Source: a virus
IMG/VR virus record: IMGVR_UViG_3300035698_031678
Location: 62,001 to 126,000 of that record
Direction: 5' to 3' (one strand)
Length of the DNA: 64,000 nucleotides
Both the position numbers and the translations under genes were made by a program. Shown piece by piece: positions 1,106-59,852 of this stretch; within the stretch, counting starts at the first letter, position 1, and the number at the start of each line of letters is the position of its first letter. The notes beneath the pieces were generated by a model. The model did no database searches, was not told where the DNA came from, and was given only the letters and a program-made list of their open reading frames with translations.

Positions 1106-1112
1106 TGGGAAT

Positions 1113-3399: not shown

Positions 3400-3402
3400 A
3401 CC

Positions 3403-3410
3403 TATTTATT
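3403..3410 (-). promoter_or_regulatory. T4-late-like promoter box AATAAATA
   Basis: AATAAATA on the minus strand, then GGT and the ATG of the hub gene. The three-base gap implies no room for a leader. Confidence 0.5.
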
Positions 3411-3466
3411 CTGGTAGAAACCGCTTGTTAAAACAATGATTATTTAGTCAACAAAATTCACAGACA

Positions 3467-4216: not shown

Positions 4217-4253
4217 AACAGTTAAAAACCATTTTAAAAATAAAACTATAAAA

Positions 4254-4598
4254 ATGAATGAAATCAACGAAATAAAGCTAGACGTCACACAAGATTTAAT
4301 ATCTTTTAGAATCCACTTTGGCTTATCAGAATGTCGTAATCTACTTAACCTACACCTTTACCAAAATAGTGAGATAGATTCAGAACCTAGAAAACTAATT
4401 TTTTCTACTAATAATCAAAAACCAGCTGTAGCTCTTGTTGAATTGCTCAACTTTATAAGAATACCTTTACAAATGGTGGTAGTGTTGACAAATATGAACT
4501 TTTTCAAGAAATATGATTTCGTTCTAAGTGCATCTGGAGGTTACTATCTTACCCAACAGTTTTATGACTTACATGGTAAAGACATTTTGAAAAACTAA
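4254..4598 (+). CDS. Hypothetical protein (114 aa)
   Basis: Follows the previous gene after 37 bases with an A-rich leader (AAACTATAAAAATG). A soluble small protein with a hydrophobic core (LVELLNFIRIPLQMVVVLTN). No family recognised. Probably co-transcribed with its neighbours. Confidence 0.65.
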   Translation: MNEINEIKLDVTQDLISFRIHFGLSECRNLLNLHLYQNSEIDSEPRKLIFSTNNQKPAVALVELLNFIRIPLQMVVVLTNMNFFKKYDFVLSASGGYYLTQQFYDLHGKDILKN

Positions 4599-4615
4599 AA
4601 ATTAAATTAACCATT

Positions 4616-5810: not shown

Positions 5811-5841
5811 TCATTAAATAACTATTAAAATAACAAACGAT

Positions 5842-6099
5842 ATGGCTCAAGAGGTTAAAAATTACGTATTATTAGATAAAAACCAGATTTTGGTTCCAAT
5901 GTATCATGATAAAGATGATGTAGAAGTTGGTAAAACGGTATATCTACAAGTCTCCACTTCTATAATGAAAGGTAAGGTAAAGAAGAGACTAAACAAAAGC
6001 GACCATTACGAAGTTACCACAATGTTTAATGGTAAAGAGAAACCTTTTTTCAAAAGAAAATCGGAAATTATGGCTATAGGACTAAAAACGTACGTTTAA
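5842..6099 (+). CDS. Hypothetical small basic protein (85 aa)
   Basis: Lysine-rich and probably a small beta barrel: VGKTVYLQVSTSIMKGKVKKRL followed by YEVTTMFNGKEKPFFKRKSEI has the alternating pattern of SH3/KOW-like folds. Nucleic-acid or protein binding is possible but unproven. Confidence 0.6.
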   Translation: MAQEVKNYVLLDKNQILVPMYHDKDDVEVGKTVYLQVSTSIMKGKVKKRLNKSDHYEVTTMFNGKEKPFFKRKSEIMAIGLKTYV

Positions 6100-6140
6100 T
6101 AGCATTCAAACAAATTTTTTAAGATTATAATTAAGCACTC

Positions 6141-6383
6141 ATGACTGAAACCGAATTTTTACAATTGTTACATTCTGTAGCTAAAGATAGAGACATAGAA
6201 TTTGCAATAGAAGAAATAACAATGGAATCTAATTTTAAAACAGAACTCCACCTAGATAGTTTAGATCAGTTAGATCTTGTCATGGGTATGGAAAAACACT
6301 TTAACATTATGTTAGATTATGATGGTACTAATGCAATGGAAACTGTTGTAGAACTTTACGAATTAACAAAATCAAAAATATAA
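6141..6383 (+). CDS. Acyl carrier protein-like
   Basis: 80 residues, the normal ACP length. The sequence ELHLDSLDQLDLVMGMEKHF contains the DSL motif, whose Ser40 would carry 4'-phosphopantetheine, followed by the amphipathic recognition helix II. The N-terminal helix and the acidic charge also fit. In bacteria ACP carries acyl chains for fatty-acid or secondary-metabolite synthesis. In a phage it could load a host acyltransferase, act in lipid synthesis, or serve as a binding partner; no matching synthase is visible here. It sits 5 bases before the next gene. Family call is fairly strong, role unknown. Confidence 0.75.
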   Translation: MTETEFLQLLHSVAKDRDIEFAIEEITMESNFKTELHLDSLDQLDLVMGMEKHFNIMLDYDGTNAMETVVELYELTKSKI

Positions 6384-6387
6384 AGCC

Positions 6388-6798
6388 ATGTCTAAGAAAT
6401 TTAAGATTAGTAAAAACAAACTGTTTTTTAAAAATAAAAACGGTTCTTTAATGAGATTAGACAAGTATTCCCTGGACTTATACTACTTTGTCATATCTAG
6501 AATGACTACCGAAGAATTTGTTAAAAAACATAAAGCCCTAAATGATGGGGTAAAGTATGCTATGAACGTTTCGCCAGTTCTTTTACACGTTCCAGATCCT
6601 TTATCAGGCTACGTTGAAAATTCTCCAACGCAAAATCGTGTGCATGATAAAGGTAAAGTTCACCACACCATGACTATATTTACGCAAATCGATAGAGTTG
6701 CTGTTGTAAAGCTTACTACAGAAAAAAACATTCTAGAATTATCAAATGACGAAAAGATCATAAATTCTGTAGTAGAAACTGATAAAGAAAATTCTTAA
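6388..6798 (+). CDS. Hypothetical protein (136 aa)
   Basis: Starts 5 bases after the ACP-like gene. A strongly basic N-terminus (KKFKISKNKLFFKNKNGSL) precedes a mixed domain. Contains HVPDPLSGYVENSPTQNRVHD and HHTMTIFTQIDRVAVVKL. No family recognised. The tight spacing suggests co-expression with the ACP-like gene. Confidence 0.6.
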   Translation: MSKKFKISKNKLFFKNKNGSLMRLDKYSLDLYYFVISRMTTEEFVKKHKALNDGVKYAMNVSPVLLHVPDPLSGYVENSPTQNRVHDKGKVHHTMTIFTQIDRVAVVKLTTEKNILELSNDEKIINSVVETDKENS

Positions 6799-6826
6799 TT
6801 CTTCTATAGAAATCAAATAAATCACT

Positions 6827-7570
6827 ATGGAGACTGACAATAAAAAGTTTATATTAACAGAAAAAGAATTAAGAGTTGGGGCTGTTAGCTTGCACAGACA
6901 TATGTTGACTGAATCAGAGCAATTTTGCTCTTTAAAGGTTTTAGGTGGAGGTTGGTTTAGTGCAGATAATGTAAACAAAATTTTATACTTTTTTGGTACT
7001 TCTCACGAATTTGGTCAATGTTCTATAGAGCAACTTAAAGAATACAGAGCAAAAAATGAACATATTTTTGGAAAAAAAGGTAAAGATTTTAGATGGATCT
7101 TTTCAAATGAAAATTCTTTAGAAGAAGCTATCTCTGATTATCTAAATTGTAAACACCTAACTAATATGGGTTTAGGCAGCTTTACTAAAAATTTCATAGA
7201 CCCAATTGATAAGCCTTACATCTATAGTAAGCCTTATGGCACGACCTTTGAAATTTCTTTAGTAAACAATTACGAAGACGTTCCTGAAAAATACTTAGAT
7301 TTTTTGGTAGATGATATTACTGATGATGAAAGAATCTTGAAAAAGATAAGTTCTGTGATTATAATTGGCGCATTTGACCCTAAAGACATGGAACTTGAAG
7401 CGTTCAAGGTGCTACTAAGTTTAAAAGAACATTCTTTACCTTTAGATTATTTTAATGGTTCTCCTTACTTAATATTTTTGAAGAAAGCTAAGCTTGTAAA
7501 AGGTTCTAAAAGATTAAGTATTACTGAACTCGGTAAGGTGTACGTAGAAACGGTTTTACTATGCAACTAA
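6827..7570 (+). CDS. Hypothetical protein (247 aa)
   Basis: Soluble protein. The N-terminal part contains FCSLKVLGGGWFSADNVNKILYFFG and FGQCSIEQLKEY. The C-terminal 70 residues look like a winged-helix arrangement ending RLSITELGKVYVETVLL, so nucleic-acid binding is conceivable. It overlaps the next small gene by 10 bases. Function unknown. Confidence 0.6.
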   Translation: METDNKKFILTEKELRVGAVSLHRHMLTESEQFCSLKVLGGGWFSADNVNKILYFFGTSHEFGQCSIEQLKEYRAKNEHIFGKKGKDFRWIFSNENSLEEAISDYLNCKHLTNMGLGSFTKNFIDPIDKPYIYSKPYGTTFEISLVNNYEDVPEKYLDFLVDDITDDERILKKISSVIIIGAFDPKDMELEAFKVLLSLKEHSLPLDYFNGSPYLIFLKKAKLVKGSKRLSITELGKVYVETVLLCN

Positions 7571-7731
7571 AGCTACCTTGTTGGATAGTGGGTCACAAAT
7601 CACCAAATTGGTTAGTAATAAGGAAAAGAATATTTAAAAATAATGGACAAGTAAAATACATTAGTTCTAGATATTGTACCAGATGCGAGGAGATAGTGAA
7701 AGATCGAAATTATAAAAAATCTACATTATGA
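7561..7731 (+). CDS. Small CxxC protein (56 aa)
   Basis: A short gene bridging its neighbours: ATG at 7561 overlaps the upstream stop, and its TGA overlaps the ATG of the next gene (ATGA). The product is basic, with one Cys near the N-terminus (PCWIVGHK) and a YCTRCEE pair near residues 39-42, which could form a small metal-binding site. The coupled overlaps on both sides are the main evidence that it is real. Function unknown. Confidence 0.55.
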   Translation: MQLKLPCWIVGHKSPNWLVIRKRIFKNNGQVKYISSRYCTRCEEIVKDRNYKKSTL

Positions 7732-8054
7732 GTGGTAAAGTGGTAAAATTGAAAGAAATTGTTGAAAAAGAACAAATAGAAAATAAGTGCATACTGTCTG
7801 AAGACGCTTTAATTCTTATTTTTTGTTCATTCTCTAAAAGTACTAAGCTACAGATTGACATGTTTGAATTATACTTTGATTTATTAGAAATCTTAGAATT
7901 TTATAGGGAAAAAGAACATAGTAGTTTATTGTTTGAAAAATCTAAGGCTATATTCTTAAAGTATGATCAAATAGCGGTTCAGGAATTCGAGTTACTGACT
8001 AAGCACTACCATGAAAGTTACTTAGAAGTAATGGAAAAAATCAAAAATTTATAG
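7728..8054 (+). CDS. Hypothetical helical protein (108 aa)
   Basis: Mostly alpha-helical and acidic (LQIDMFELYFDLLEILEFYREKEH). Its start overlaps the preceding stop and its stop is 2 bases before the next ATG. No family recognised. Confidence 0.6.
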   Translation: MSGKVVKLKEIVEKEQIENKCILSEDALILIFCSFSKSTKLQIDMFELYFDLLEILEFYREKEHSSLLFEKSKAIFLKYDQIAVQEFELLTKHYHESYLEVMEKIKNL

Positions 8055-8056
8055 TT

Positions 8057-8329
8057 ATGGGGGAAATGTCCGAATATTACAGAAATCCAAAAGATGGTAT
8101 AGAAGAATGGAGCAACGAATTAGAAAAACTAGAGAAAGATAGAACCAGAGATACTTATTGGGTTACTAAATCTGGAAAGAAATCTAAAATAAAGGATTTG
8201 TCAGATTTGCACCTTAGAAACATAGTAAACCACACCATAAATTCTAAAAAACTAAATAAAGAAAGTAAGTTGTCTTTGCTTAGAACAATTGATTTAGAAA
8301 TGAAATTTAGAGAAGATAATGAAAAGTGA
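8057..8329 (+). CDS. Hypothetical charged protein (90 aa)
   Basis: Highly charged, helical, lysine/glutamate-rich. Contains KDLSDLHLRNIVNHTIN, a short-helix pattern seen in many small phage proteins of unknown function. Overlaps the following gene by 11 bases. Confidence 0.58.
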   Translation: MGEMSEYYRNPKDGIEEWSNELEKLEKDRTRDTYWVTKSGKKSKIKDLSDLHLRNIVNHTINSKKLNKESKLSLLRTIDLEMKFREDNEK

Positions 8330-27035: not shown

Positions 27036-27386
27036 ATGAAAACAGAAATTCAATTATCAGATGAAGACAAAACTTTACTACTTAATGTTAGGTGGGGCAA
27101 TAACATCTATATCAACAACAACATATCTTCTAAAGGGATAGCAGAACATGTAACCGTTGGAACTATAGCTAGAATAGAAGGCAGTATTAAGTTTGCACTC
27201 ACTCAATTTGGAGAATATATTTTTAGTCTATTGGTGCTAAAAATGTGTGAAGAGATAAGAAAAGAATCATACTGCAGTATGATGTCTGCTAATAGCATGT
27301 TGGTAAAATACAATTATCGTTACAATGCTGCTTTGAGAGGAGTACTTAAAAAAGAATACCTAAAAACAGGGTCACTTGCTAAGTAG
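27036..27386 (+). CDS. Hypothetical protein (116 aa)
   Basis: Starts 3 bases after the previous stop. Contains SMMSANSMLVKYNYRYNAALRG. Mixed fold, no membrane span; no family recognised. Confidence 0.6.
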   Translation: MKTEIQLSDEDKTLLLNVRWGNNIYINNNISSKGIAEHVTVGTIARIEGSIKFALTQFGEYIFSLLVLKMCEEIRKESYCSMMSANSMLVKYNYRYNAALRGVLKKEYLKTGSLAK

Positions 27387-27405
27387 TGTCAAAAAGAAAC
27401 ATCTA

Positions 27406-27870
27406 ATGGTAATTACTAAAAAACAAGAAAACAAGATAATAGACGACATTTTAAATCTTATACTTATAGAATTCAAAGGTAGAACTGATAAAGGTGGAAC
27501 ACATTACCTGGTACACATTTTACACGTTGCCTCTAAAGTACACAGGTTTGGTTGGGAGTACTATGCAGCTGCATTACTGCACGATCTAATTGAAGATACT
27601 GATTGGACTATTAGCTTGTTAAGAAAAGAATACCCCAGAATACCTATTAGCATAATATCTGCAGTAGAACTTCTCACCAAATGTGATGGAGTTGATTACG
27701 AAGAATACATAGATTCTATAACTTACAACAGAATTGCTAGAAAAGTTAAAGAGGCAGATCTAACTCACAATATGAACGTAATGAGGTTAAAGCAACTAAA
27801 ACCGAAAGATATTGTAAACCTGGAAAAATATAGGGTGGCGCTAGACAGAATAATAAAATTTAACCCATGA
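27406..27870 (+). CDS. HD-domain hydrolase, SpoT/MESH1-like
   Basis: 154 residues from the ATG at 27406; a TTG 30 bases upstream is in frame but overlaps the previous gene. THYLVHILHVA and ALLHDLIEDT give the H...HD...ED arrangement (His33 or His37, His59-Asp60), and EADLTHNMNVMR supplies the last Asp. This layout is that of metal-dependent (p)ppGpp hydrolases of the SpoT/MESH1 group, which remove the 3'-pyrophosphate of ppGpp or release phosphate from NADPH. In a phage it could blunt a host stringent response; that is inferred. It overlaps the next start (ATGA). Confidence 0.7.
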   Translation: MVITKKQENKIIDDILNLILIEFKGRTDKGGTHYLVHILHVASKVHRFGWEYYAAALLHDLIEDTDWTISLLRKEYPRIPISIISAVELLTKCDGVDYEEYIDSITYNRIARKVKEADLTHNMNVMRLKQLKPKDIVNLEKYRVALDRIIKFNP

Positions 27871-36670: not shown

Positions 36671-37440
36671 AAAGCAAACAATATTCTACTTAATCCTACC
36701 GTTCCAGAAAAACCATGGTGAACTTCAGAATCTTGACCTAAAATAAACCCATAACCCAATTGAGCGGTTATTCCCCATCTAGAGGGTTTTCTTTCATCAT
36801 TTACATTAAAAACTCTTAAGTCCTCTATATCAGAGTAAGGTGACAATGAAGTAACGTCAGCATATGGAGTTCTAGAGCCAAAATTACGTTTAAAGAATCC
36901 ACCTTTTTCTGGTTTTTGGTCTCCAATAGTGATGTTATAGCTGTCTTTGTATGAAAATCTTAGGTCTATATTAGAAGAGCTTGCTTTTATAGAGTATTCT
37001 ATCCAATCGTCTGAAAAATCAGTACTGTATATTGTTTCTTTAATTTCACCTTCTAATGTATCAATTACTGTAACTACTGTTCCTGTAGTGCTTTCTACTG
37101 CACCCCTGGTGTCTAGTATTATAGCAGAACCATTTCTCTTTATTTCTTTATTATTATCTTTTACCAACTTCTGTAACCTTAGCATTTGAGGATCAGTAAA
37201 GACAGCATTTACAAAGTCTTTAGGGTCTCTGGTCTCGTTTACTTTTATTCTACCTACTGTTTGACCTAAATCATTTACAGATTTTTCCATTTTGGAATTA
37301 GAACTTTCAATAAGTTTTTTTAGTTCTTTAATGTCTTTATTCTTGTCGCAGCTGTTTGTTAGAATAATTATGCAAATAATGCCTAACAGTATGGTGAGCA
37401 AGTTTACTTCTTTAATTTGATTTAGTAGGTAAGTTTTCAT
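36667..37440 (-). CDS. Lipoprotein-like membrane protein (257 aa)
   Basis: A hydrophobic N-terminus (LLTILLGIICIIILTNS) ends at Cys31 in TNSC, a plausible lipobox, followed by CDKNKD. A coiled coil follows (IKELKKLIESSNSKMEKSVN). The C-terminal part is beta-rich and glycine-containing (TAQLGYGFILGQ). This could be an outer-membrane spanin-like lysis protein of Gram-negative phages, or another envelope protein. Overlaps purB by 29 bases. Confidence 0.55.
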   Translation of the reverse strand: MKTYLLNQIKEVNLLTILLGIICIIILTNSCDKNKDIKELKKLIESSNSKMEKSVNDLGQTVGRIKVNETRDPKDFVNAVFTDPQMLRLQKLVKDNNKEIKRNGSAIILDTRGAVESTTGTVVTVIDTLEGEIKETIYSTDFSDDWIEYSIKASSSNIDLRFSYKDSYNITIGDQKPEKGGFFKRNFGSRTPYADVTSLSPYSDIEDLRVFNVNDERKPSRWGITAQLGYGFILGQDSEVHHGFSGTVGLSRILFAF

Positions 37441-38812
37441 GTTCTCTAGTTATTAATTCGGATAATACGTTATTTGAAAAGTAATTATCAAAGTTCTCTT
37501 TTAAATACTCTAAATCCCATTGTACGTTATCTTTGCTCATTAGCTTCATGGAAAGATAAGATTCAGGCTCGTTAGACATAATTCCATACAACTGACCCAC
37601 TTCACTAGCAAATTGGTAGTTACTATTGAGATCTTCTGAGATTGCTTTAGAATTAAATTCATACTGCTCTAAACCTTGATTAAGAGAGCATAATGCTTGA
37701 TTAAAGTAGCATAGTAGCAAAGGTAAATTTCTAACAACGGTTAAATCACTTAAATCTCTTTGCAATCTACTCAAAGATAAAGATGATCTCAATGTATCTA
37801 ACATTCCTATAGCTAGTTTTAAATTACCTTCAGCGTTTTCTAAACTTATGGGATTAATTTTTTGGGGCATAGTACTACTACCAAACTCATTATCACCAGT
37901 TTTCCTAACCAGGTAATTTATAGAACAATAATACCACATGTCTTGAGTGAAATTTAATAGCTGGTACATTATTTTGGATAAATCATTGAAAGAATCTAAA
38001 ATGCCTTCGTACTTATTGCTTTGGAAATGGGGTTTTATTTGGAAGTCTTTAGTTGAGGTATTGTAAAAGTATTGTATTAATGTGTCCTTTGAAACCTCAT
38101 ATCCATTGAAACCTAGTAGTTTTGCAGAGTAATTGTTACCGATAGTACCATTTCCAAATTGAATTTTAGTATTACCGAAGTTTTCAAAATATTCTTCTAG
38201 ACCATTAGTGGTAAGATATCTACTCATAAGATCTTTTATCTTAATAGGGACAGCAACCTGACCATGGGTTCTACCCAACATGTATTCATCTTTGGACATG
38301 CTTTCTACAGATTCGTGAACCTTTGACATGTTAGTGTTTATAATGTCATAAAGAGTATCTTTGAACATTTTAGTTTGAACCACTCCAACTATGTCTTGGC
38401 TAGTCAGATTGAAATGTACTAGGTCACAAATAGAATAGATTCTAGAGGAGTCTAATTTAATAGACAAGAAGTCAGATATTTTTTGTTTTAGTAGCGTTTT
38501 TACTGCTGCAATATCGTGTTTGGTTTCTCTTTCTATAATCTTTACAAGACTTAAATCGTAAGCATCAAGAATCTTGTACATTTCTTTTTGGTTATCTTTG
38601 TCTTCTAATAGTAACTTAGTAATTCCAAGAGATTTTTTGATGTCAGGATTTAATAGATCTTGGTCAAAGGCTGTCTTATAGTTTTTTATTAGATTTACCC
38701 AATACAAAAACTCTAAGAAATAGCAATTTTTGTAGTACTCGTTCTCACTATAAGCACTATTTACAATTTCGGCATTTTTAGCGTATCTACCATTGTTATC
38801 AAATAAGTTCAT
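37412..38812 (-). CDS. purB: Adenylosuccinate lyase (PurB)
   Basis: 466 residues, full family length. The fumarase/aspartase-superfamily signature GSSTMPQKINP holds the catalytic Ser312/313; KHDIAAVK, HFNLTSQD and GRTHGQ are the other active-site blocks (His99, His133, Thr137-Ser138, His183). In bacteria PurB splits adenylosuccinate to AMP and SAICAR to AICAR, both with release of fumarate. A phage copy would raise purine supply. It could also process an N6-succinyl purine deoxynucleotide if a PurZ-like partner exists outside the window; none is visible here. It lies between the portal and the lipoprotein gene, among virion genes. Confidence 0.85.
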   Translation of the reverse strand: MNLFDNNGRYAKNAEIVNSAYSENEYYKNCYFLEFLYWVNLIKNYKTAFDQDLLNPDIKKSLGITKLLLEDKDNQKEMYKILDAYDLSLVKIIERETKHDIAAVKTLLKQKISDFLSIKLDSSRIYSICDLVHFNLTSQDIVGVVQTKMFKDTLYDIINTNMSKVHESVESMSKDEYMLGRTHGQVAVPIKIKDLMSRYLTTNGLEEYFENFGNTKIQFGNGTIGNNYSAKLLGFNGYEVSKDTLIQYFYNTSTKDFQIKPHFQSNKYEGILDSFNDLSKIMYQLLNFTQDMWYYCSINYLVRKTGDNEFGSSTMPQKINPISLENAEGNLKLAIGMLDTLRSSLSLSRLQRDLSDLTVVRNLPLLLCYFNQALCSLNQGLEQYEFNSKAISEDLNSNYQFASEVGQLYGIMSNEPESYLSMKLMSKDNVQWDLEYLKENFDNYFSNNVLSELITREHENLPTKSN

Positions 38813-38853: not shown

Positions 38854-40731
38854 CTATAGTTCAGGGTTTTTATCCTTTGCTAGCATATTTTTATTAATTT
38901 CCCAATCTTCTTCTGTCATGATGGATAATTTGTTAACCATAAGAAACTTGGGTGAAAATATTGGTTCTCTATTAGCATCCTGGAGTCTTTCATAAATACT
39001 GTAATTCTCCATTTTAGCCTTTTCAAGTTCATACTCTTTAGCTAGCGTAAAGTATCCTTCTGTGTTAAAAACTATCTTAATAGAATTGTAAAACCCATTG
39101 TCTAAAGAAAGACTTGGGTCTAAAAGAACTGTATTTATGAATACTGTATTTTTTATAATTCTGGAAAATTCACTAGTGATTCTTCTACACCTTTTATGGT
39201 AAGATATTTCGTCATGTGGTATTCCATCATTCTTGAACAATATCAAAGAACCACCACCATTAGAACCATCAAATCTATTACTAGGTCTAGTACTGTTTCT
39301 TTGAAGTCTCTTCTCAAAGTATTCTACCACTTCCATTTTACTCAAGTCTACTCCATTGTAGGAAACACTGTCTATTTGGGTTGTATTACCACTTCTGGAA
39401 GGCAGTGCGATGTTTCTACCAAATTTATAGTCAGCCTCACCATTTATAGTAACCTGACCACTCTTGGAATCTATAGCAACTTTTTCTTTGTACTGACCAA
39501 CCAATTTAGCTACTGCTTCTTTAGATTTAGTACCTAGTTTACTACCTGTAGGCACTACCATTTTAAGCCTGAATTGACCTACCATAATATTCCAAGCAAC
39601 TCTAGACTCTTCTAGGCTTCTTTTCAGATTATAGTCTCTTTTAAGTGAATCTAAGTAACTAGAGTTGTTGTACTTACTATTACCAGAAACATTTCTCCAT
39701 TCTATTAAACCAAATGAATTTTCTGGATAGTATTTGTATTTTCCTCTCTCATCAAGAGTTTTGTACATTAATACTATAGAACCATCTTCGTGAACACCAT
39801 CAACCTTAGCTATTCTATAAGCGTTTACTCTTTTCATACCAATAATCTTGACTGGTATGTCGGTAACTTCTCGCTTTGGCAAATTTACCGTTTCTCTAAT
39901 TTTGCTTTTTCTATTTCTTGATCCTTGTGATTCATTTAAATCTTCCAATTCGTCTTCCAGATCATTAAATCCTTCTTCACCATCAACAGCGTCTTCTTCA
40001 AGACCTTGCAAGGTTTTAGCAAACGCAAGTCTATTTTCACTTATTTTTTCTAAACCACTAAGTTTTTCATTTTCTTTTATAAGTGTTTTAGCAACGATTT
40101 GATTAGACTCGCTTAGGTCTCTCATATTGTTCTTACCGTTAGGTAATATTTCGTTCAATTTAGATTCGTTTAGTCTAATCTTTTTGATGATTTTGTTTCT
40201 CTTATCGTCAAAATCTTTTCTATTTTGAGTTTCATATATGTTTTCATATGCAACTCTACCAATCAGCATAAAACTGTAAAAAACCATCCAAGCTGTTTGT
40301 TCCTTGTCAAATTCAAGAAAAGATAAAGTGGAATTAAATTCTGACCTTATTGTTTCTTTCATTTTATCACTGAAAGTAAATTTCTTTTCATTAAATTCTA
40401 TGTCACAAAATTCGTGATCGGTATCGTATACTATACAATCATCAACTATACCTTCTATGATGTTTTTTAATTCAACGTTTTCGTCTAGATAAAGTTTTAT
40501 CTCTTCTTCATCAAACCATTGTTGTTCTCTAAGTTGTTGATTAGCTTCTTCTTCGTAAAAGGCTTCGTAGTGATTTAACTCGTCTGTAGTTTGAGAAAAT
40601 TTTTTGGTCTTTTTAGAAAGTATTTGTTTATCTATGCCTACTTTAAAAATACCTCTAACGGAATCAGGTACTATAGATGTGTTGACTCTTCTTCCATGAA
40701 GTCTTCTTCTATAATTATATCGATTGGTCAT
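38854..40731 (-). CDS. gp20-like portal protein
   Basis: 625 residues. A long charged N-terminal region precedes the core: LEESRVAWNIMVGQFRLKM and VEYFEKRLQRNSTRPSNRF correspond to the T4 gp20 order (crown/wing helices, then the helix ending V-x-Y-F-x-x-K-L-x-x-x-x-x-x-P). RRITSEFSRIIKNTVF fits the following helix. The length is near T4's 524, with an enlarged N-terminal domain. It forms the dodecameric gate for DNA packaging and the site of procapsid initiation. A late box is 10 bases before its ATG. Confidence 0.75.
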   Translation of the reverse strand: MTNRYNYRRRLHGRRVNTSIVPDSVRGIFKVGIDKQILSKKTKKFSQTTDELNHYEAFYEEEANQQLREQQWFDEEEIKLYLDENVELKNIIEGIVDDCIVYDTDHEFCDIEFNEKKFTFSDKMKETIRSEFNSTLSFLEFDKEQTAWMVFYSFMLIGRVAYENIYETQNRKDFDDKRNKIIKKIRLNESKLNEILPNGKNNMRDLSESNQIVAKTLIKENEKLSGLEKISENRLAFAKTLQGLEEDAVDGEEGFNDLEDELEDLNESQGSRNRKSKIRETVNLPKREVTDIPVKIIGMKRVNAYRIAKVDGVHEDGSIVLMYKTLDERGKYKYYPENSFGLIEWRNVSGNSKYNNSSYLDSLKRDYNLKRSLEESRVAWNIMVGQFRLKMVVPTGSKLGTKSKEAVAKLVGQYKEKVAIDSKSGQVTINGEADYKFGRNIALPSRSGNTTQIDSVSYNGVDLSKMEVVEYFEKRLQRNSTRPSNRFDGSNGGGSLILFKNDGIPHDEISYHKRCRRITSEFSRIIKNTVFINTVLLDPSLSLDNGFYNSIKIVFNTEGYFTLAKEYELEKAKMENYSIYERLQDANREPIFSPKFLMVNKLSIMTEEDWEINKNMLAKDKNPEL

Positions 40732-51187: not shown

Positions 51188-52846
51188 TTAGATAATGCTC
51201 TGACCAGAACCTTCTGTAACTGTAAACGTTAAATAGTTAAATCCAGGATTAGTACCCACTGAAGCTACTTGCGCTCTAGACTTAAGTACAGAAACTTCGC
51301 TCATAGTACCTTCGGCAATAGTAGAGATAGTTTCACCCATGATGTAATTTATCATCTTGATTCCAGGCTCTTGATCAGTTCCCTTACGAGAAACCGAGAT
51401 TCTAGCATCAGTAAGACCCATCATTGGATCTTCAAAAACATCCATTTTACGTAAAGTTCCAACCTGGTAAAGGTTATCGTTTTCGCTCAAGTTGTTCTCA
51501 AAAGGAGCATCTTGGAATCCACGAGTGTCTTGTAAAGCAGAACTTAGTCTACCATTGGTAGCAACCTTGTTAGCTTTACCTCTACGGTTTCTGTGACCTA
51601 CAACAGCAGAAGCGTATGTAAGACGTGAAACAATTCTACGTTGCATTGATGGCAAATTGTCACCATTTGTAGTAGAAATTAAAGCACCTGAAGCTTTTGG
51701 TAAACTTCTTTGAACATCATCCTCATCAAGATAAGTAGTTGTTGCTCCTTGCTCTGTTGCAGAAATGTGCAAGTTCAAGTTATCACCTGTAATAGCGTGA
51801 AAGTTTGCGTGATGTCCCCAACCTGTGTTGAATACCTTTGTGATAATTTCATCATTGAAAGATTGCTCTAACTCATTTGAAATTGCATCAAAAGCTAACT
51901 GTGCACCATCAATTCCTTCTTCCATAGCTAAGTCTTGTAACATCTCAACTGTATAACCAATTTTAACTTGGTAAGTACGCATTGAGAAGTTTTCACTCCA
52001 CTTAGTAAGACCCATTGAACGGTAACGTCCTGATTCTCCAGTTTCTCTAGAATTTCCAGTGCTTGACATACTACCATCACTACGATTAGCAGTAAACGCA
52101 TCTGTATCATCAAGACCAGCTCCAGAATATCCTTTGATAAAGTTAGTGTAAGCACCAACATAGTCTACTGTACTTGGATTGAAACCAATAAAGTTTCCAG
52201 CATCAGTAAAAATAGCAGCATCATTTACAGGAGTGTTAAGCAATGAAGCCAAAGCACCATTTCCTGTTACTGTTCCTACTCTAAAAATAGCGTGACCTTT
52301 TGCTCTATCCTTACCTACGTAAGTAATCTTTAAAAGTTCATCACCATCATTGGCATCTTTTACAGTATATTCAGTACCAGCTGTTAATGCAGCATTAGTA
52401 CCAGTTTGAACGATAGCTACCTTAAACACATTAGGCATGTTATCAGCATCTGTTGCAGATAATTTACCGCCAGCGTAAATTGGCTCTACTACATTTACTA
52501 CCATGTTTGACTTGGTAGATTGGATAGTAGGAATAAGATCCAAACCAACTGTGTTAGCGAATGAATCGATAAACACACCAAAAAGGCTGTCAAACTGACC
52601 TTCACTACCTTTAGTGCTGTCTCCAGCTGCAGAAGGGTTATTACCAAGACTAAATGCTCCACGACCAGGTGTGTTAGCGGTTGTAGCTGCATTTTCATAC
52701 ATTCTACGAACTTGTGCTGCTTCACATAGTCTTTGCATCTTAGACTTAGAGATTTTACTTATACCCTTAGCTGCTAAGTGCTTTGAAATCTTTTTGTTCC
52801 AAGATTCAAATATTTTTTGTTTTACTAATTTATTTTTGAGATTCAT
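51188..52846 (-). CDS. gp23-like major capsid protein precursor
   Basis: 552 residues (T4 gp23: 521). GRYRSMGLTKWSENFSMRTY followed by QVKIGYTVEMLQDLAMEEG and a helix ending LEQSFNDEIITKV is the T4-type capsid core (E-x-x-x-L-x-x-x-Y-x-x-E-x-x-Q-D-L, then E-L-x-x-x-x-N-x-E). The basic N-terminus ends with QRLCEAAQVRRMYENAATT; LCE (residue 42) and MYE (residue 51) both fit the phage protease target [LIM]-x-E and would give removal of a 42- or 51-residue propeptide. TCTAAATA stands 28 bases before its ATG. Confidence 0.85.
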   Translation of the reverse strand: MNLKNKLVKQKIFESWNKKISKHLAAKGISKISKSKMQRLCEAAQVRRMYENAATTANTPGRGAFSLGNNPSAAGDSTKGSEGQFDSLFGVFIDSFANTVGLDLIPTIQSTKSNMVVNVVEPIYAGGKLSATDADNMPNVFKVAIVQTGTNAALTAGTEYTVKDANDGDELLKITYVGKDRAKGHAIFRVGTVTGNGALASLLNTPVNDAAIFTDAGNFIGFNPSTVDYVGAYTNFIKGYSGAGLDDTDAFTANRSDGSMSSTGNSRETGESGRYRSMGLTKWSENFSMRTYQVKIGYTVEMLQDLAMEEGIDGAQLAFDAISNELEQSFNDEIITKVFNTGWGHHANFHAITGDNLNLHISATEQGATTTYLDEDDVQRSLPKASGALISTTNGDNLPSMQRRIVSRLTYASAVVGHRNRRGKANKVATNGRLSSALQDTRGFQDAPFENNLSENDNLYQVGTLRKMDVFEDPMMGLTDARISVSRKGTDQEPGIKMINYIMGETISTIAEGTMSEVSVLKSRAQVASVGTNPGFNYLTFTVTEGSGQSII

Positions 52847-52902: not shown

Positions 52903-55900
52903 TTAAATTGAAAGAAGTGAATGTAGGTTAGGATTAACCATTTTCACCATTTCCATTAGGTCTTCTTTGGGCATTGATTCCATCATCTTATCACCTAAAA
53001 CGATCTCTATCTCCTCTATCTCATCATCATCCGCACTCATGTAAGCCTCTAATTCTTCATCTGAAAGTTCACCTGTGTAGGGCTTATCGCTTACAAATTC
53101 TTTTTTCTCTGAATCTTCCACCTCTGAAATTCTAGCTTCAGGGCTTTCCATTTTAGATTTAGCTGCTTCAATAACATCTTGATTTTCCATCATGGTGTTA
53201 TCCATTTCCATCATTTTATTAGCGTAAGTTTCCATAATATTCTTCATTTGCTTACTTTCTTCTTTCATTGATTCAGTCAACTCTACAAGCTTTCTTTTAA
53301 TCAATTGATTTTCTTCAAACAAACCTCTTAGATTATGTTCGTTAGCATAGATAGATTTAGCAACATTTCTGTCTATGAATTTTTTCTTAGACTCACTAAG
53401 TACAACTCTTGCAGAAACAATATTACCTTTTACATCATAATGGGTAGATTCCATCAAACCTTTCAATATACGGTTTTGTTTAATCTTGCTATCAGTAATT
53501 TTAGAAATTTTGCTTTTACACTCTTGCAATAAAACTTTTCCAAAAATATCTTTAGCTTTATCTAGTCCACCTTTAGCTCTCACTCTTTTAGCAAGCTTGT
53601 AAGCAGATTCCATTAAGCTAGTTTTATAAACTTTCTTACTTTCATTAATGCTTAGAATAGTCTTTGTGTCTGTTGCAAAAGCACCCTTCTTACGAAATTT
53701 TACCACTCTTTTAGATTCCGACATTACTACCAGGTTCTTTTGAGCCATAGCTACTTTAGAGTAATTTGACTTAGAAGCTTCGTTAAGCCCCATTGCAGTA
53801 GTGTTTATCATGCTTTTAGCATTTTCTAGGAATTCATCAACTAATTCTTCGCTAGAACGTATCTCAACATGCTCTGTTACAGTAGGCTCAAGTGTGCCAT
53901 CCTGGTTTTCAGGTTTCATATCTTCGTTTAAACCTTTAGCACCACTTCTTAAATGAACTTTGAATTTGTCTTTGAATTCAGCATCCATTTTAGATTGACT
54001 TGGCATTATAGCTTTAGATTCAGAAATATCTTGTAAAACTTCTTCACCTTTCTCTTCAGCTATGTCTTCCTCGTTAGTTTCATCTATCATGCAGCCTTTC
54101 TCTTCTGCCATCTTTTTAGCCTTTTTCTCATCGTAGTATAAGCCCATTTCCTCGCCTTTGTCGCTGTAAAGTGAATAAACTTTTCTATTCTCATTTAGAC
54201 CCATTTCCTCTCTGTCAATGTTTGCATCCATGTCTTCTTTAAACATTTTAACAATATCATCTTGGCTTGGCATTACCGCCTTAGATTCGTCAAGATCCGC
54301 ACCACCTTGGTAAGATCCATACTCATCTAAAGAGACCATTGAATCAACATCTTCGGAATTAACTTCTATCATTATTCCAGAATTATCAAAAACGTGCTTC
54401 TCGTCAACAATACCTTTATATTGCGCATAAGCTTCAACATCACCTTTTTTAACCATGTAAGTTTGGTCTAGCTCTAGATCAATAGATTCATTCAACTTTC
54501 CAGAAACTTCGTATCCGTCTTCTTGTGCAGCTGTATGTGCAGCATTTTCGCTAGGGTAACCATCATCTATTAAAACTCCTTTAGAACCATATATTGCCCA
54601 ATTGTCTCCTGAACCTTCAATGGTAACTTTGCCACCAGCGTCTTCGTTAAGAATCCCTTTTTCCATTGCCACAATTTTGGCAATCATTTCTGGTATAACA
54701 TCAGAACCAAAGTCGTAATTTATTAGTAAGTGTTCTACACCACTATCTCCTATTTCTGCATAACCACCATTGGATTTTACATCCTTAAGAACTTTTTTAA
54801 TATCTTCTTCTGTGTAAGCTTTTTTATAATAATCTCCTAAACCACTGGCATCTTCATTCATCTTACCATCTTCCATCTTCTTTCTTTGTGCTATCATTTC
54901 TGGAGATTCAACGTCTTCGGAAACATCATGAATTTTAGCATACCTTTCGTATTCTTGACTGTATCCTTTTGCTAATAAAGTATCTTTAAGATCTTTTAAA
55001 CTAAAATCTGAACCCAATTCTGTATTAAGCCATTTAAAGTTTTTGTTACCTTTTATAATATCTTTAAGCATTTTGTTCTGAACACCTTCGGAAACATCTT
55101 TTAGTTTATCTTCTACCATTTTAGTGTACTCGCTTAGTAGACCATATTCTTCTAAATCTTCCACTCCAAGATTAATATCACCAACTACTCCAGCAGATGT
55201 TATGGTCACTTTACCTGAATCATCTACGGTATAATTCACTTCTACGTCTCCATCAGGTGTGTCCTTGAGAATTGTTTTAGATTCATTTAGGTTTTTGTTA
55301 CCTTCTAGTTTATCTTCTACCATTTTAGTGTACTCGCTTAGTAGACCATATTCTTCTAAATCTTCTACTCCAAGATTAATGTCACCAACTACTCCAGCAG
55401 ATGTTATGGTCACTTTACCTGAATCATCTACGGTATAATTCACTTCTACGTCTCCATCAGGTGTGTCCTTGAGAATTGTTTTAGCTTCATTTAGGTTTTT
55501 CTTCTTTCTAAAAGTAGTGTTAGATTCATTGAGCATTGTAACTTCTAAATAATTGTAGTCAATATAATCAGCAATCCATTCTCTAACATCTTCCATTTCA
55601 TCACCTATTTCACCATCGTCATAATGATCATCACTAATAGGCGCACCTTCAAATACGATTGTACCCTTTTTAAACTCTAATGTAACATCACCAAACTTTT
55701 GACCATCTTCATCTTCGTTAGTTATTTCTGATGTCACGTAGTCTCCTAATTTGTTGACAGCATCTTCAAACGCTGCATCTGAATCAATAATTTTAGACTC
55801 ATTTAAATTTTTTCTTCTCATAACTGATTCGCTTAAATCACCTTTAATTTTATCAAAGTCGCTTTTTAAAAGCCATATTGCCATAGGGCTAGCATCTTGT

Positions 55901-58797
55901 TGTGTAATAGCTTTTACACCATTAACTTCACCAATTGTTATTCCAGCCATAGTGTACTTGTCGTTGTCTATAGATTTGGTTTCTTTCCAATTAAGACCAA
56001 ATTCTCTGGCGTTTTCTATATTCCAAATTTCGTCTAAATCTCCAATTTCATAAATCATTATAAAATCTTTTGACCCAAGTTCTTTTTCTAGAAATGATTT
56101 AAAATCGTTATAATCGCTATTATCAGCAAAAGCATCATTCCAATCTCCTGTTTTTAATCTGCTTTCGTTTAGATTTTTTCTGTTCATAACTGATTTGTTT
56201 TCTTTCAAACTAATATTTTCTTTTTTAGCATATTCTATTAAAGCTTTAGTTACTTTAGCAACATCATGACTTATATCTAGACCGTTGTTTTCGAATTTAT
56301 TAAGATTACCAAATTTTTCTATTTGGTATTTTACTCTAGAAACATTTTCCCCATTGTAATAATCATGAGCAATTTTTTCAGCAAAATTTTTATCAATCTT
56401 AAATTGAGATAAGATATGACCCAATTTTTTCATCTTTTCATCAGACTCTAATTGTATATCTTCATTTAAGTTCCTTTTTCTAAGTTTACTCACTTTTTTT
56501 GCTTCGTGCATTTTTACTAGAGTTTTATTACCACTCATCTTTACAGCCTTAATAACATCTTCTACTTGTTTAGGCGTCATTTTTTCTAGGAAGTTTCCAG
56601 CAGTGTTTGATCCACCACCTGTAGCCATCATATCATCCCACTTTAAATTGGACATTTTTTCGATTTGCTCAACTAAGATATTAGCTTCACTATTACCTAA
56701 ACCAATTTCATCTAGAACGTCTTGGTTTTCTAGGTTGTTTATAATGTTAGAAAATTCTTTTGACTCGTTCATTCTGATTTTGTTTTTAGATATAGACTTT
56801 CTTTTGTTTTCATCAAGATCTCTAAGTTTTCTCGATTTTATTCCAATGGCTTCTGCATCCGATTTTTTCATAATTATTTCTGAATGATAATCTGCAACTT
56901 CTATTGCGCTTCTATTATCAACCTTTACCATCTTGTAACTAATGTCGTACTCATCCCCATTCCAAGTTAAGTATTCTGTGTTATTATTAACAGGAATACC
57001 ATTTTTTGCCATTTCTTCAAAATCTAAACCAGATTCTGGGTCGCTTCCCAAAGAATATATTACAACAAATTCATTTCCTCCTAGAGTATTTTTAATCATT
57101 TTTATGAACTCTGGAGCTTCTTGTATGGTGTGAAAAGTTTCTAATTTACCTGATTGTCCGTAAATCTTTAAGTTCCCTGATTGTATTTCCTCGTTCATTC
57201 TAATTTTGTTTTTAATATTTTTTGACTCGTTCAGTAAGCCCTTAGTATAACCATGTTCAAAGGCTGTTTCACCAAATTTTTTAAAATAAGGTAATTCTTG
57301 GGTAAGAGTTTTCTCAAATGACATTCCTAAATCAAGGTTTTTCATCGTTTTTTTAATAGATGAAATAACACTTTCTGGTGTTAAATTGTCAAAGGTGTCA
57401 AAGGTGTCTTGGCTAATGCTATTTTTAACTAATGCTAGGTTGTTTTTATTAGCAGATTCATTTAATGCAGCTATCTTTGATTCGTTTAATTCGTAGTCAA
57501 AACCAAATTTTTTCTTAAGCTGTTCTATTGCATGAGATCTACCTTCTATGTGATCTTTATGACCTGGGCTTGTTTCTAAATCAGAATTATATTCTTCTAT
57601 AGTGTCAATAAGCTCTCTACCTTCTTTGTCAGCTAATACTTGTTTGAAAGTAGAATCTTCTGACATGTTGGTTTTTTTACTTTCTGAAAGTCCCATAATT
57701 GCTTCAATTTCGTTTTCGTTTAATTTTACTTTATTACTAACCTCTAAACTATAGTTACTTCTGTTAGGCACGTGGTTATCTATGTCGAAGTATTTCGATT
57801 GATTGTACACTTTCAAAATTTCTAAGTCTGGAAACTTCTCTAAAACTTTACGTTTTAGCAAATCATCAGGTATCATGTCTAATGTCTTAAGGGCATGCTT
57901 TCTAGTAAGTATGGATGTTTTTACTGTTACTGATTTATCAGATATGGATACCTCTACTTCTATGGGTTTTCTTAGGTAACCACTAATAACATCTTCGAAT
58001 ACTTCGCCTAAATCTTTTGCGCTATTAACTAGTTTGTTAAATTTTGTTATTGCTAATTTGTTGTTGTTATAAGCTTCTTTTGCTGATGGTGTTATTAAAG
58101 TAGAAACGCTTTCATTAAGATTGAATTTTACCAATTTTTTGTTGTGATCCATTCTTTTCTTAACGTTCTTAAGTTCGCTTTCATTAACCTCAACTATTGC
58201 TGTGTTTCCTCTTTCCTCTATAGGGTTTAATTTAGCAAAAGTAAATCCTGGTGTAGAAACTATGTCTATTGTAAAAATTGTGTCTATAGTAGCTTTTTCC
58301 GTATCTTCATCAAAATATCCTATAGCTCTAGTGCTAACGCTTAGAGTACCACCATTATTGATTATGGCTAATGCGTCTATTCCACCACCTATAACTGTTG
58401 GTATTATTTTTATTCTTACGTAAACACGATTCTCATCTTCTTTGTACCACAACTTGGTGATTATGTGAGAAACCTCTTTCATAGAGATTTCGTAATTATC
58501 ATCATGGTTTAATGCACCAAATAACCTTCTTTCTTCAATCCAAGGTTGCAAATACTCTACTTGTTCTAGGTATTCTTCTTTGCTATACCATCTGCCATTC
58601 TCATTAGTACCATCTTCTGCTGACTCACCAAATACGGCTAGTGGTGCTTCCAGTGTGATAGACTGATCATTTACAGGAGAAAGATCTAGTCCAGCATTTT
58701 CATAGAGCTTTACATTTTGTAATTTTTCTGTCTTAATCCTTTTTAAAGGAGAAGAAGATTGCTCAAATAACCAAACTAATTTTTTATTTTCAGGCAT
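52903..58797 (-). CDS. Prohead protease fused to a 1750-residue scaffold/core region
   Basis: 1964 residues. Residues 1-205 are a T4 gp21-like protease: NENGRWYSKEEY, GALNHDDN with candidate catalytic His98, SVSTRAIG with candidate Ser155, then IVSTPGFTFAKLNP. T4 gp21 is about 212 residues and separate from its core protein. Here it runs on into a helical, acidic, repetitive region of many short modules joined by LNES, LNEN, LNED and similar (more than 15), which fit the [LIM]-x-E cleavage rule of such proteases. One 68-residue module is tandemly duplicated, and another about 75-residue module occurs at least twice in diverged form. It ends in helical scaffold-like sequence. Late box 16 bases before the ATG. 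Confidence 0.8.
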   Translation of the reverse strand: MPENKKLVWLFEQSSSPLKRIKTEKLQNVKLYENAGLDLSPVNDQSITLEAPLAVFGESAEDGTNENGRWYSKEEYLEQVEYLQPWIEERRLFGALNHDDNYEISMKEVSHIITKLWYKEDENRVYVRIKIIPTVIGGGIDALAIINNGGTLSVSTRAIGYFDEDTEKATIDTIFTIDIVSTPGFTFAKLNPIEERGNTAIVEVNESELKNVKKRMDHNKKLVKFNLNESVSTLITPSAKEAYNNNKLAITKFNKLVNSAKDLGEVFEDVISGYLRKPIEVEVSISDKSVTVKTSILTRKHALKTLDMIPDDLLKRKVLEKFPDLEILKVYNQSKYFDIDNHVPNRSNYSLEVSNKVKLNENEIEAIMGLSESKKTNMSEDSTFKQVLADKEGRELIDTIEEYNSDLETSPGHKDHIEGRSHAIEQLKKKFGFDYELNESKIAALNESANKNNLALVKNSISQDTFDTFDNLTPESVISSIKKTMKNLDLGMSFEKTLTQELPYFKKFGETAFEHGYTKGLLNESKNIKNKIRMNEEIQSGNLKIYGQSGKLETFHTIQEAPEFIKMIKNTLGGNEFVVIYSLGSDPESGLDFEEMAKNGIPVNNNTEYLTWNGDEYDISYKMVKVDNRSAIEVADYHSEIIMKKSDAEAIGIKSRKLRDLDENKRKSISKNKIRMNESKEFSNIINNLENQDVLDEIGLGNSEANILVEQIEKMSNLKWDDMMATGGGSNTAGNFLEKMTPKQVEDVIKAVKMSGNKTLVKMHEAKKVSKLRKRNLNEDIQLESDEKMKKLGHILSQFKIDKNFAEKIAHDYYNGENVSRVKYQIEKFGNLNKFENNGLDISHDVAKVTKALIEYAKKENISLKENKSVMNRKNLNESRLKTGDWNDAFADNSDYNDFKSFLEKELGSKDFIMIYEIGDLDEIWNIENAREFGLNWKETKSIDNDKYTMAGITIGEVNGVKAITQQDASPMAIWLLKSDFDKIKGDLSESVMRRKNLNESKIIDSDAAFEDAVNKLGDYVTSEITNEDEDGQKFGDVTLEFKKGTIVFEGAPISDDHYDDGEIGDEMEDVREWIADYIDYNYLEVTMLNESNTTFRKKKNLNEAKTILKDTPDGDVEVNYTVDDSGKVTITSAGVVGDINLGVEDLEEYGLLSEYTKMVEDKLEGNKNLNESKTILKDTPDGDVEVNYTVDDSGKVTITSAGVVGDINLGVEDLEEYGLLSEYTKMVEDKLKDVSEGVQNKMLKDIIKGNKNFKWLNTELGSDFSLKDLKDTLLAKGYSQEYERYAKIHDVSEDVESPEMIAQRKKMEDGKMNEDASGLGDYYKKAYTEEDIKKVLKDVKSNGGYAEIGDSGVEHLLINYDFGSDVIPEMIAKIVAMEKGILNEDAGGKVTIEGSGDNWAIYGSKGVLIDDGYPSENAAHTAAQEDGYEVSGKLNESIDLELDQTYMVKKGDVEAYAQYKGIVDEKHVFDNSGIMIEVNSEDVDSMVSLDEYGSYQGGADLDESKAVMPSQDDIVKMFKEDMDANIDREEMGLNENRKVYSLYSDKGEEMGLYYDEKKAKKMAEEKGCMIDETNEEDIAEEKGEEVLQDISESKAIMPSQSKMDAEFKDKFKVHLRSGAKGLNEDMKPENQDGTLEPTVTEHVEIRSSEELVDEFLENAKSMINTTAMGLNEASKSNYSKVAMAQKNLVVMSESKRVVKFRKKGAFATDTKTILSINESKKVYKTSLMESAYKLAKRVRAKGGLDKAKDIFGKVLLQECKSKISKITDSKIKQNRILKGLMESTHYDVKGNIVSARVVLSESKKKFIDRNVAKSIYANEHNLRGLFEENQLIKRKLVELTESMKEESKQMKNIMETYANKMMEMDNTMMENQDVIEAAKSKMESPEARISEVEDSEKKEFVSDKPYTGELSDEELEAYMSADDDEIEEIEIVLGDKMMESMPKEDLMEMVKMVNPNLHSLLSI
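55102..55500. repeat. 204-bp tandem duplication inside the scaffold region
   Basis: Period 204 bp (68 codons): the second copy matches the first to about 195 bp with only three differences seen. It encodes the TILKDTPDGDVEVNYTVDD module ending with an LNES joint. The near-identity points to a recent event or ongoing conversion. Confidence 0.85.
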
Positions 58798-58928: not shown

Positions 58929-59852
58929 ATGAATGAAATAAAGATTGGTAGGTTGAAAGGCTTAAGAAATACTAACGAAGATTATTGCAAAGAAGGGGTA
59001 ATAATAGCTAACAACGAGTTTGTTTACAATGCGCTAGACCTTAAGCCATCTGATGTAAATAAGGATTTTATCATTAACACTTTATCTAAAATCTGTAGAT
59101 ACACTGGTCATTTTGGTCAGCAAAATAGCAGTACCGCTGGCGCTATATATTCTGTCGCTCAACATTCTGTAAAAATGGCTGAAGCCTGCTTGTTGGTAAC
59201 TGGTGACCCTAAAAAAGCTATGGAATGCCTTTGGCATGATGCTGCAGAAGCTTATTTTGGTGATATCATATCACCCATAAAGCTAAAATTTAAAGACCAA
59301 ATTAAACCTCTTGAGATAAAATTAGAAATTGTTATTTTCAAAGTTCTTGGCATAGATTTTCCTTTGGGAGATCATGTTAAACACATTGATCTAAACATTA
59401 CAGAGTATGAAATGGACACCATGATTTTTAATGACATGAACGTAGCTGATCCAGGTTACTACTGGAGTCCACACATATCTTTTATTAGATTTATAAACAT
59501 GGACAATAAACTCAATTCATTATTAAGGCATTCTGAAAAAGATTTGGTTGTAGGAAGAATGACTCACGCATCTTTAGAAACCATATCAAAAAAACCATTA
59601 GATAATTTAATTAAAGAAGACGCTTCTAGATCAAATGAGTGTTACATGTTAACATCATTAAAACTTACAATGTGTTTAGAAGAATTAGGGTATTCACACT
59701 CACAGTCTGGTAATTCTTCTGGAGTTTTAAGGAATTGGCTTCACATAGACAGAAAAGAAAAAACCTACACTAACGTACATAAATTCAAAGTTGATGAAGA
59801 TAAACCTTCACTAGGTTCTGTAGAAGAACTTACTGATTGGGATCTTGGTTAG
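58929..59852 (+). CDS. YfbR-like HD phosphohydrolase with extra C-terminal domain
   Basis: 307 residues. The first 200 carry an HD domain: AQHS (His79), LWHDAAEAYFGDIISPIK (His103-Asp104) and a last Asp near residue 154 in the HIDLNITEYEMD segment. This form, with E-A-x-x-G-D after the HD pair, is that of 5'-deoxynucleotidases (YfbR) and of phage dATP hydrolases (DatZ). The last 100 residues (ECYMLTSLKLTMCLEELGY and so on) are not seen in YfbR. It would trim a dNMP or dNTP pool; substrate not known. Its 3' end overlaps the next gene on the other strand by 23 bases. Confidence 0.75.
   Translation: MNEIKIGRLKGLRNTNEDYCKEGVIIANNEFVYNALDLKPSDVNKDFIINTLSKICRYTGHFGQQNSSTAGAIYSVAQHSVKMAEACLLVTGDPKKAMECLWHDAAEAYFGDIISPIKLKFKDQIKPLEIKLEIVIFKVLGIDFPLGDHVKHIDLNITEYEMDTMIFNDMNVADPGYYWSPHISFIRFINMDNKLNSLLRHSEKDLVVGRMTHASLETISKKPLDNLIKEDASRSNECYMLTSLKLTMCLEELGYSHSQSGNSSGVLRNWLHIDRKEKTYTNVHKFKVDEDKPSLGSVEELTDWDLG

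Follow-up and report, generated by a model that had tools for sequence, protein, structure and literature searches.

Polyproteins are a hallmark of RNA viruses, and the head components of tailed phages are, to our knowledge, thought to be encoded on separate genes. In T4, the prohead protease gp21, gp22, and the internal proteins IPI–III and Alt each have a gene of their own, one or two cuts are made per cargo protein, and gp22, gp67, and gp68 make up core material that is broken down and lost from the head. The T4 protease cleaves C-terminal to Glu, after L/I-x-E, and itself carries LIE-9 (PMC9026906); it removes 65 N-terminal residues of gp23 (PMC9958956), Alt is cut at ITE-6 and LTE-619 (PMC5694885), and the internal proteins bear a capsid targeting sequence, that is, a short N-terminal propeptide released by one cut (PMC9026906). 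The phages phiKZ and SPN3US resemble the present case in that a single prohead protease processes numerous internal head proteins at a short x-E motif, some propeptides more than once, and differ from it in using separate genes with propeptides and the motif A/S-x-E; we found no protease-led multi-module polyprotein described for them.

A protease fused to a scaffold is already annotated in Tenacibaculum phage PTm1 (564 aa) and is present in other Bacteroidota phages, namely pT24 (527 aa), Lak-A1 (584 aa), and LR756500 (632 aa), so that the fusion itself is not new, a point on which the initial annotation of the present DNA needs correcting. Across PTm1, pT24, Lak, and metagenomic huge phages, such proteins span 527–807 aa. 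Like the protein described here (hereafter designated polyprotein A), those of PTm1, pT24, Lak, and LR756500 have an N-terminal protease and are rich in [LIM]xE, and in PTm1 and pT24 they lie beside the capsid gene, whereas polyprotein A is about three times longer and they lack its long joint-bounded module array. Polyvalent proteins of phages and conjugative elements share with polyprotein A the many unrelated domains per chain; their injection is presumed, and zincin-like metallopeptidases have been proposed to release the domains by proteolysis (Iyer et al. 2017, PMC5512222). Polyprotein A differs from them in its head-maturation serine protease, its short motif at each module boundary, and the putative scaffold in the chain, and no zincin-like peptidase was detected in it, the sole Pfam match at E ≤ 0.01 being S77. 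Protease–scaffold fusion, multi-site processing, and injected polyvalent proteins with proposed processing are thus already known.

The 64-kb stretch of DNA analyzed here (the window) is part of a virus record totaling 129,295 bases, whose nearest named relative is Flavobacterium phage MaF61 (capsid identity, 53%), a myovirus with a contractile tail and a head of ~110 nm (PMC13269007). The host is likely to be found among the flavobacteria, as judged from relatives that mostly infect Bacteroidota. Polyprotein A is encoded by an intact ORF on the minus strand; the major capsid gene adjoins it, polyprotein A lying directly upstream, and the portal gene runs in the same direction 12 kb off. With a probability of about 0.72, we read polyprotein A as a head-assembly polyprotein whose joints are cut and whose modules are kept as internal proteins. 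The principal features of the locus are as follows.

52903–58797, minus strand: polyprotein A, protease plus module array plus putative scaffold, 1964 aa (ORF, PF03420, PHROG 207)
51188–52846, minus strand: major capsid protein, gp23 type (PF07068, E 1.5e-15), with LCE-42 and MYE-51 in the presumed N-terminal propeptide, positions conserved
38854–40731, minus strand: portal protein, gp20 type (PF07230, E 7e-42), with LNES at 187 and 265 and LSES/ISEN between
58111–58797, minus strand: N-terminal S77 (gp21-type) prohead protease domain, aa 1–229 (PF03420; PHROG 207; 5JBL profile match)
58504–58506, minus strand: candidate catalytic His98, invariant in nine relatives
58333–58335, minus strand: candidate catalytic Ser155, invariant, aligning with the SRG Ser of T4 gp21
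58264–58266, minus strand: candidate third catalytic residue Asp178, invariant, aligning with an Asp of T4 gp21
58699–58707, minus strand: LYE-33, candidate N-terminal autocleavage site, LYE kept in the three closest relatives
58762–58770, minus strand: LFE-12, second candidate N-terminal autocleavage site
52906–53562, minus strand: conserved C-terminal region, aa 1746–1964, putative scaffold core, conserved in L017 and partly in MaF61

Given the protease domain and the capsid neighbor, we rejected a reading of the long region as a tail or tape-measure protein.

The initial annotation, made from the DNA letters, had recognized a gp21-like protease in the first ~200 of the 1964 residues, with His98 and Ser155 as candidate catalytic residues, and both points were borne out. 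PF03420 (Peptidase_S77) matched aa 63–167 (E 7e-7; 29.3 bits versus a cut-off of 27), PHROG 207 (head maturation protease) matched aa 64–254 (E 2e-25), and a profile of seven relatives matched the T4 gp21 crystal structure 5JBL (E 9e-11). In an alignment of nine relatives, H98, S155, and D178 are among 17 invariant columns, by which Asp178 is added as the third member of a candidate catalytic triad; the triad assigned in SPN3US gp245 is H77/S153/D178 (PMC5694885). The domain is placed in family S77 by a profile score over the curated cut-off, the His/Ser/Asp residues, and the T4-like capsid and portal genes nearby. With T4, the locus has in common the S77 protease family, the candidate triad, an [L/I]xE-type motif, and the gp20/gp23-type genes; it differs in carrying the protease, many modules, and a putative scaffold in one chain with some 25 strict joints, and in having further polyproteins.

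Beyond the protease domain, polyprotein A is divided by recurring short motifs (joints), which would set the module bounds as [L/I/M]-[N/S]-E followed by [S/N/D/A] and are often paired 8–15 residues apart.

58108–58119, minus strand: joint 1, LNES 227–230, at the protease domain end, conserved in L017
57454–57489, minus strand: double joint, LNES 437–440 and LNES 445–448
57223–57234, minus strand: joint LNES 522–525
56761–56772, minus strand: joint MNES 676–679
56458–56469, minus strand: joint LNED 777–780
56161–56172, minus strand: joint LNES 876–879
55795–55836, minus strand: double joint, LSES 988 and LNES 998, basic spacer SVMRRKN
55483–55533, minus strand: double joint, LNES 1089 and LNEA 1102, basic spacer, predicted disorder up to the second joint
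55279–55290, minus strand: joint LNES 1170–1173
54850–54861, minus strand: joint MNED 1313–1316
54640–54651, minus strand: joint LNED 1383–1386
54484–54495, minus strand: joint LNES 1435–1438
54187–54198, minus strand: joint LNEN 1534–1537
53920–53931, minus strand: joint LNED 1623–1626
53776–53787, minus strand: joint LNEA 1671–1674
53638–53649, minus strand: joint INES 1717–1720

The count of more than fifteen LNE-type motifs given at the outset was upheld: LNE occurs 16 times in polyprotein A versus 1.2 in shuffled sequences (maximum, 7 in 2000), LNE[SNDA] 16 times versus 0.35 (maximum, 3), and [LIM][NS]E[SNDA] 25 times versus 1.7 (maximum, 8). An unbiased scan of all tripeptides returned LNE as the most over-represented one in polyprotein A and likewise in L017 (a relative from IMG/VR), MaF61 ORF140, and another protein encoded by the window's genome; in the Chryseobacterium phages MA9V, NES and INE take the top places instead of LNE. 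Among 108 joints pooled from seven proteins, which were picked with the motif [LIM][NS]E[SNDA] itself, position P3 is L in 72, I in 21, and M in 15, P2 is N in 82 and S in 26, and P1' is S in 64. Over the whole genome of the window's phage, polyproteins A–D (see below for B–D) plus the portal contain LNE[SNDA] 31 times versus 0.9 expected, and the other 143 called ORFs contain it 0 times versus 4.8 expected. In MaF61, which serves as a replicate since orthologous proteins are enriched there too, the figures are 15 versus 0.3 in its multi-module proteins plus portal and 3 versus 4.6 elsewhere. The multi-module class was set after the counts had been seen, and these contrasts describe the distribution rather than provide an independent test. 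It might be supposed that the LNE-rich linkers arose merely by duplication and composition and are functionally meaningless; one recent duplication and short DNA similarities near some joints could be cited in favor. Yet the enrichment recurs in MaF61, L017, and MA9V, beside modules mostly without detectable homology, and the genome-wide confinement of the motif to polyproteins A–D and the portal largely refutes this explanation, to which we attach almost no weight.

The joint motif fits the L/I-x-E rule of the enzyme family and also the motif of the capsid propeptide, in line with the proposal that the joints resemble cleavage sites. The capsid N-termini of the window, MaF61, and L017 carry [LI]CE↓A at 41–42 and [LMI][YF]E↓[NS] at 50–51 (the arrow marks the presumed cut), the second site reading MYE51↓N in the window and IYE50↓S or LFE51↓S in the other two; LCE-42 and MYE-51, reported previously near the capsid N-terminus, are present, and two relatives keep them in the forms [LI]CE and [LMI][YF]E. 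The corresponding sites are INE24↓A and LNE62↓S in MA9V and LNE23↓S and LME64↓N in Sphingomonas phage PAU, and I-x-E-S motifs occur in this part of the PTm1 and pT24 capsid proteins (INES near residue 50 in PTm1). The ORF chosen for a row labeled LR500 proved not to encode a capsid protein and was left out of the comparison. Lineage by lineage, the joint motif thus resembles the presumed capsid processing motif. The portal of MaF61 has LNES at 190 and 228, and residues 187–268 of the window's portal contain two LNES, an LSES, and an ISEN; judging from these motifs, the portal may be internally processed, in contrast to T4 gp20.

Double joints enclose basic spacers of 8–15 residues (K+R, 0.18–0.31 versus 0.09–0.12 in modules; five proteins), which are not seen in MA9V, and their spacing is partly non-random (p 0.007–0.04 in two proteins; not significant in the others). 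The spacers are, speculatively, remains of capsid targeting sequences, or else plain spacers. A binding function of such basic spacers, found in several proteins, could agree with joints that stay uncut and act as LNES-type linkers or docking motifs (for capsid, portal, or a protease exosite), the chain remaining intact or serving as a beads-on-a-string ruler. We regard this as improbable, because the motif follows the rule by which the fused enzyme's own family cleaves and sits at the capsid propeptide position, and because the modules vary while the joint is kept. The chain carries a protease together with the motif of that protease's family rule at its product boundaries, recognition being deduced from the rule. 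Collectively, the motif, the capsid control, and the modularity make cutting of the joints by the attached protease very probable.

The modules between the joints behave as cassettes, and those with recognizable similarities are the following.

56809–57117, minus strand: module aa 561–663, weakly similar to module 879–990
55828–56163, minus strand: module aa 879–990, weakly similar to polyprotein B module aa 681–804 (E 5e-4)
55282–55485, minus strand: module copy 1, aa 1105–1172, DTPDGDVEVNY module plus the next joint (202-nt repeat)
55078–55281, minus strand: module copy 2, aa 1173–1240, single copy in L017 at 54–55% identity
54286–54486, minus strand: module aa 1438–1504, found twice in L017 (E 1e-12 and 2e-8)

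The tandem 202-nt repeat is 98% identical at the DNA level, and its spacing of 204 nt corresponds to exactly one joint plus one module; in L017, the duplicated module is present once and the joint is conserved. Moreover, the MA9V-1 and MA9V-2 proteins, identical at 1120 of 1207 aligned residues (93%), differ by a single large indel of 133 aa with both ends within joints (...ELINE[SATK...YTLNE]AAEDL...), an outcome found for 10 of 1214 placements of random 133-aa intervals and for 0.3% over lengths of 60–200. This close pair is a better boundary test than local alignment, in which free-alignment boundaries were modestly closer to joints than random (p about 0.01–0.03; loose motif). A module following a KTF joint is shared by polyprotein A of MaF61, polyprotein A of L017 (two copies), and the window phage's polyprotein B; modules are thus reordered between phages and exchanged between polyproteins A and B. 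Within polyprotein A itself, few module homologies are detectable, with short DNA similarities around some joints, and a tblastn search of 50,697 phage records with aa 233–1964 gave no match, not even at E ≤ 1. In MA9V, a joint-bounded stretch corresponds to DUF5856/PHROG 858, a separate 128-aa gene in T4, and the final module in polyprotein B of MaF61 matches PHROG 11458 (85 aa) over 74 positions. The DUF5856 module in the protease polyprotein of MA9V-1/MA9V-2 is related to T4 mobD.7 (T2 rI.-1).

An AF2 model of the duplicated module with its flanks, built from three sequences and hence moderate evidence, predicts a domain of β-strands and helix (core pLDDT, 84–90) with segments containing the outer joints below 50, that is, disordered. 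A fold search with it gave no significant PDB match, and the best viral match, an uncharacterized myovirus fragment (E 0.006), was left unused; the model of an 896-aa multi-module stretch (five rows) was uninformative (pLDDT, 38.9) and discarded. The description of the remainder as repetitive and helical consequently holds for the joints and a few modules; most modules are not repetitive, and the one modeled is predicted to be mixed α/β. That one ORF encodes separately folding products is indicated by the cassettes, one predicted fold, and matches to stand-alone families in relatives. The middle of polyprotein A is best read as mostly unrelated small domains, concatenated counterparts of T4-type internal (cargo) proteins, although the modules are fused in one chain and are not separate small genes as T4-type internal proteins are.

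At the other end of the chain, the last ~220 residues show conservation among relatives, as does the protease end, with the middle rearranged and not collinear. The last ~220 residues are likely the scaffold, by their position in analogous fused protease–scaffold proteins, and a Pfam/PHROG scan outside the protease domain gave nothing but a weak match to PHROG 6844. The proposed protease–scaffold fusion would apply to this putative scaffold end and not to the middle, which consists mostly of small folded domains.

We found three further LNE-jointed chains in the same genome. Polyprotein B (genome 56316–60389, minus strand, 1357 aa; window −5684 to −1611, i.e., outside the window) contains modules duplicated in tandem and separated by LNES joints, together with a NUDIX domain (E 1e-17) whose NUDIX box is intact and which has LSE and LNE joints on its flanks; in its MaF61 counterpart, ORF123 (924 aa), the NUDIX box is intact too. 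Polyprotein C (genome 1035–3092, plus strand, 685 aa) corresponds to MaF61 ORF76 beside a DnaB-type helicase, and polyprotein D (genome 128000–128938, plus strand, 312 aa) has one LNES and one MSES; neither C nor D has recognizable domains. No protease was detected in B, C, or D in the scans made, and they would therefore need cleavage in trans. The initial annotation had envisaged a single chain that cuts itself; given three protease-free companions, cleavage would be partly in trans. Polyproteins B and C are sited away from the head genes, so that the motif is what suggests their packaging.

These chains also bear on whether the pieces are cargo at all. If polyprotein A were an expanded scaffold, the joints would be cut and all pieces would belong to the core, to be degraded and to exit the head. 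Such a fate has precedents in the fused protease–scaffold proteins of relatives (527–807 aa), likewise enriched in [LIM]xE, and in the T4 core proteins, which are cut into many fragments, mostly exiting (PMC9958956, PMC9026906). We consider it unlikely, since the modules look like diverse folded domains rather than a single helical repeat, size changes by whole cassettes, and the matches to stand-alone families and the intact NUDIX enzyme on a second chain would be pointless in disposable material. The foldedness, the non-scaffold homologies, and the NUDIX domain instead favor, with reasonable likelihood, folded modules that stay in the head as internal proteins. Their delivery into the host, suggested by analogy with the T4 internal proteins and Alt, is an evenly balanced question.

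The ORF, the protease homology, the enrichment and distribution of the motif, the joint-exact indel and duplication, the modularity, and the NUDIX motif are direct observations. For the reading of polyprotein A as a cut, cargo-bearing head polyprotein, we infer the following course of cleavage, packaging, retention, and ejection. The S77 protease and the C-terminal scaffold would co-assemble in the prohead, bringing along the small, independently folding modules. On completion of the prohead, the protease would free itself at the candidate sites LYE-33 and LNE-229 and then cut the capsid propeptide at LCE-42/MYE-51. The joints of polyprotein A would be cut in cis or in trans, and the same protease would cut polyproteins B, C, and D and perhaps the portal. 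Scaffold pieces and spacers would exit, and the folded modules would remain in the head as equivalents of T4 IPI–III/Alt, probably to be ejected together with the DNA. Cargo would be gained, duplicated, or swapped in joint–module cassettes.

The same architecture and joints were found in MaF61 ORF140 (1404 aa), L017 (1667 aa), and MA9V-1/MA9V-2 (1347/1207 aa), whose annotations go no further than putative prohead scaffold or prohead core serine protease; module-rich chains of the MaF61/window/L017 group and MA9V thus span 1207–1964 aa. Module content and order differ from those of the window, and the MA9V joints prefer INES over LNES. MaF61 and MA9V-1/2 are cultured phages. In IMG/VR, a single-sequence protease query, a two-row capsid alignment, and the MA9V protease gave no match, and other queries gave one relative, on two overlapping contigs; no relative was found among GTDB genomes. 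The freely licensed literature yielded no description of a head protease leading a joint-separated module array, nor of protease-free companions sharing its joints. On the simplest reading, internal-protein cassettes may have been added to a fused protease–scaffold gene, lengthening the chain by joint-bounded modules. PAU has the protease on a gene of its own (246 aa), with small genes on either side; in the region 599–8283, gp150, gp152, gp153, and gp154 share an MKTxxxL[YF]E start, some followed by AKLNEA, and the N-terminus of gp142 is similar. These small PAU proteins (MKTxxxLYEAKLNEA) are candidates for counterparts of T4 internal proteins with a capsid targeting sequence, which they resemble, and their shared start is a candidate targeting sequence by which packaged PAU proteins might be found.

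What the initial annotation observed is confirmed, and its polyprotein interpretation is supported in part. If the reading is true, each packaged protein would be held in a fixed ratio to the scaffold with its release signal built in, and the joints would reveal from sequence which proteins the phage carries into its host. Injected phage proteins, which are hard to find, would then become testable by motif search. The cassette design could also double as a protein-packaging platform. For Bacteroidota T4-like phages, the odds stand roughly level that a protease–cargo–scaffold chain and its companions load tens of cargo proteins at fixed stoichiometry, release them at LNE joints, and inject them, the cargo evolving by cassette exchange.

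Several other genes of this virus were recorded. A GroEL-like chaperonin of 543 aa is encoded at genome 12402–14565 (minus strand), with a small protein in the GroES position; two chaperonin genes are present in MaF61. A folding chamber encoded by the phage itself may accompany head precursors of unusually large size. An adenylosuccinate-synthetase-like protein (genome 28229–29587, plus strand) has PurZ (NCBIfam) as its best match (E 1e-38, below cut-off), an adenylosuccinate lyase lies at window 37412–38812, and an HD-domain protein (PF13023) at window 58929–59852. Together, these three give a hint of 2-aminoadenine (Z) DNA, or of some other modification of purines, perhaps in MaF61 too. Finally, a small HD-domain protein at window 27376–27870 resembles the hydrolase portion of RelA/SpoT (E 4e-9) and, by this similarity, is possibly a phage (p)ppGpp hydrolase.
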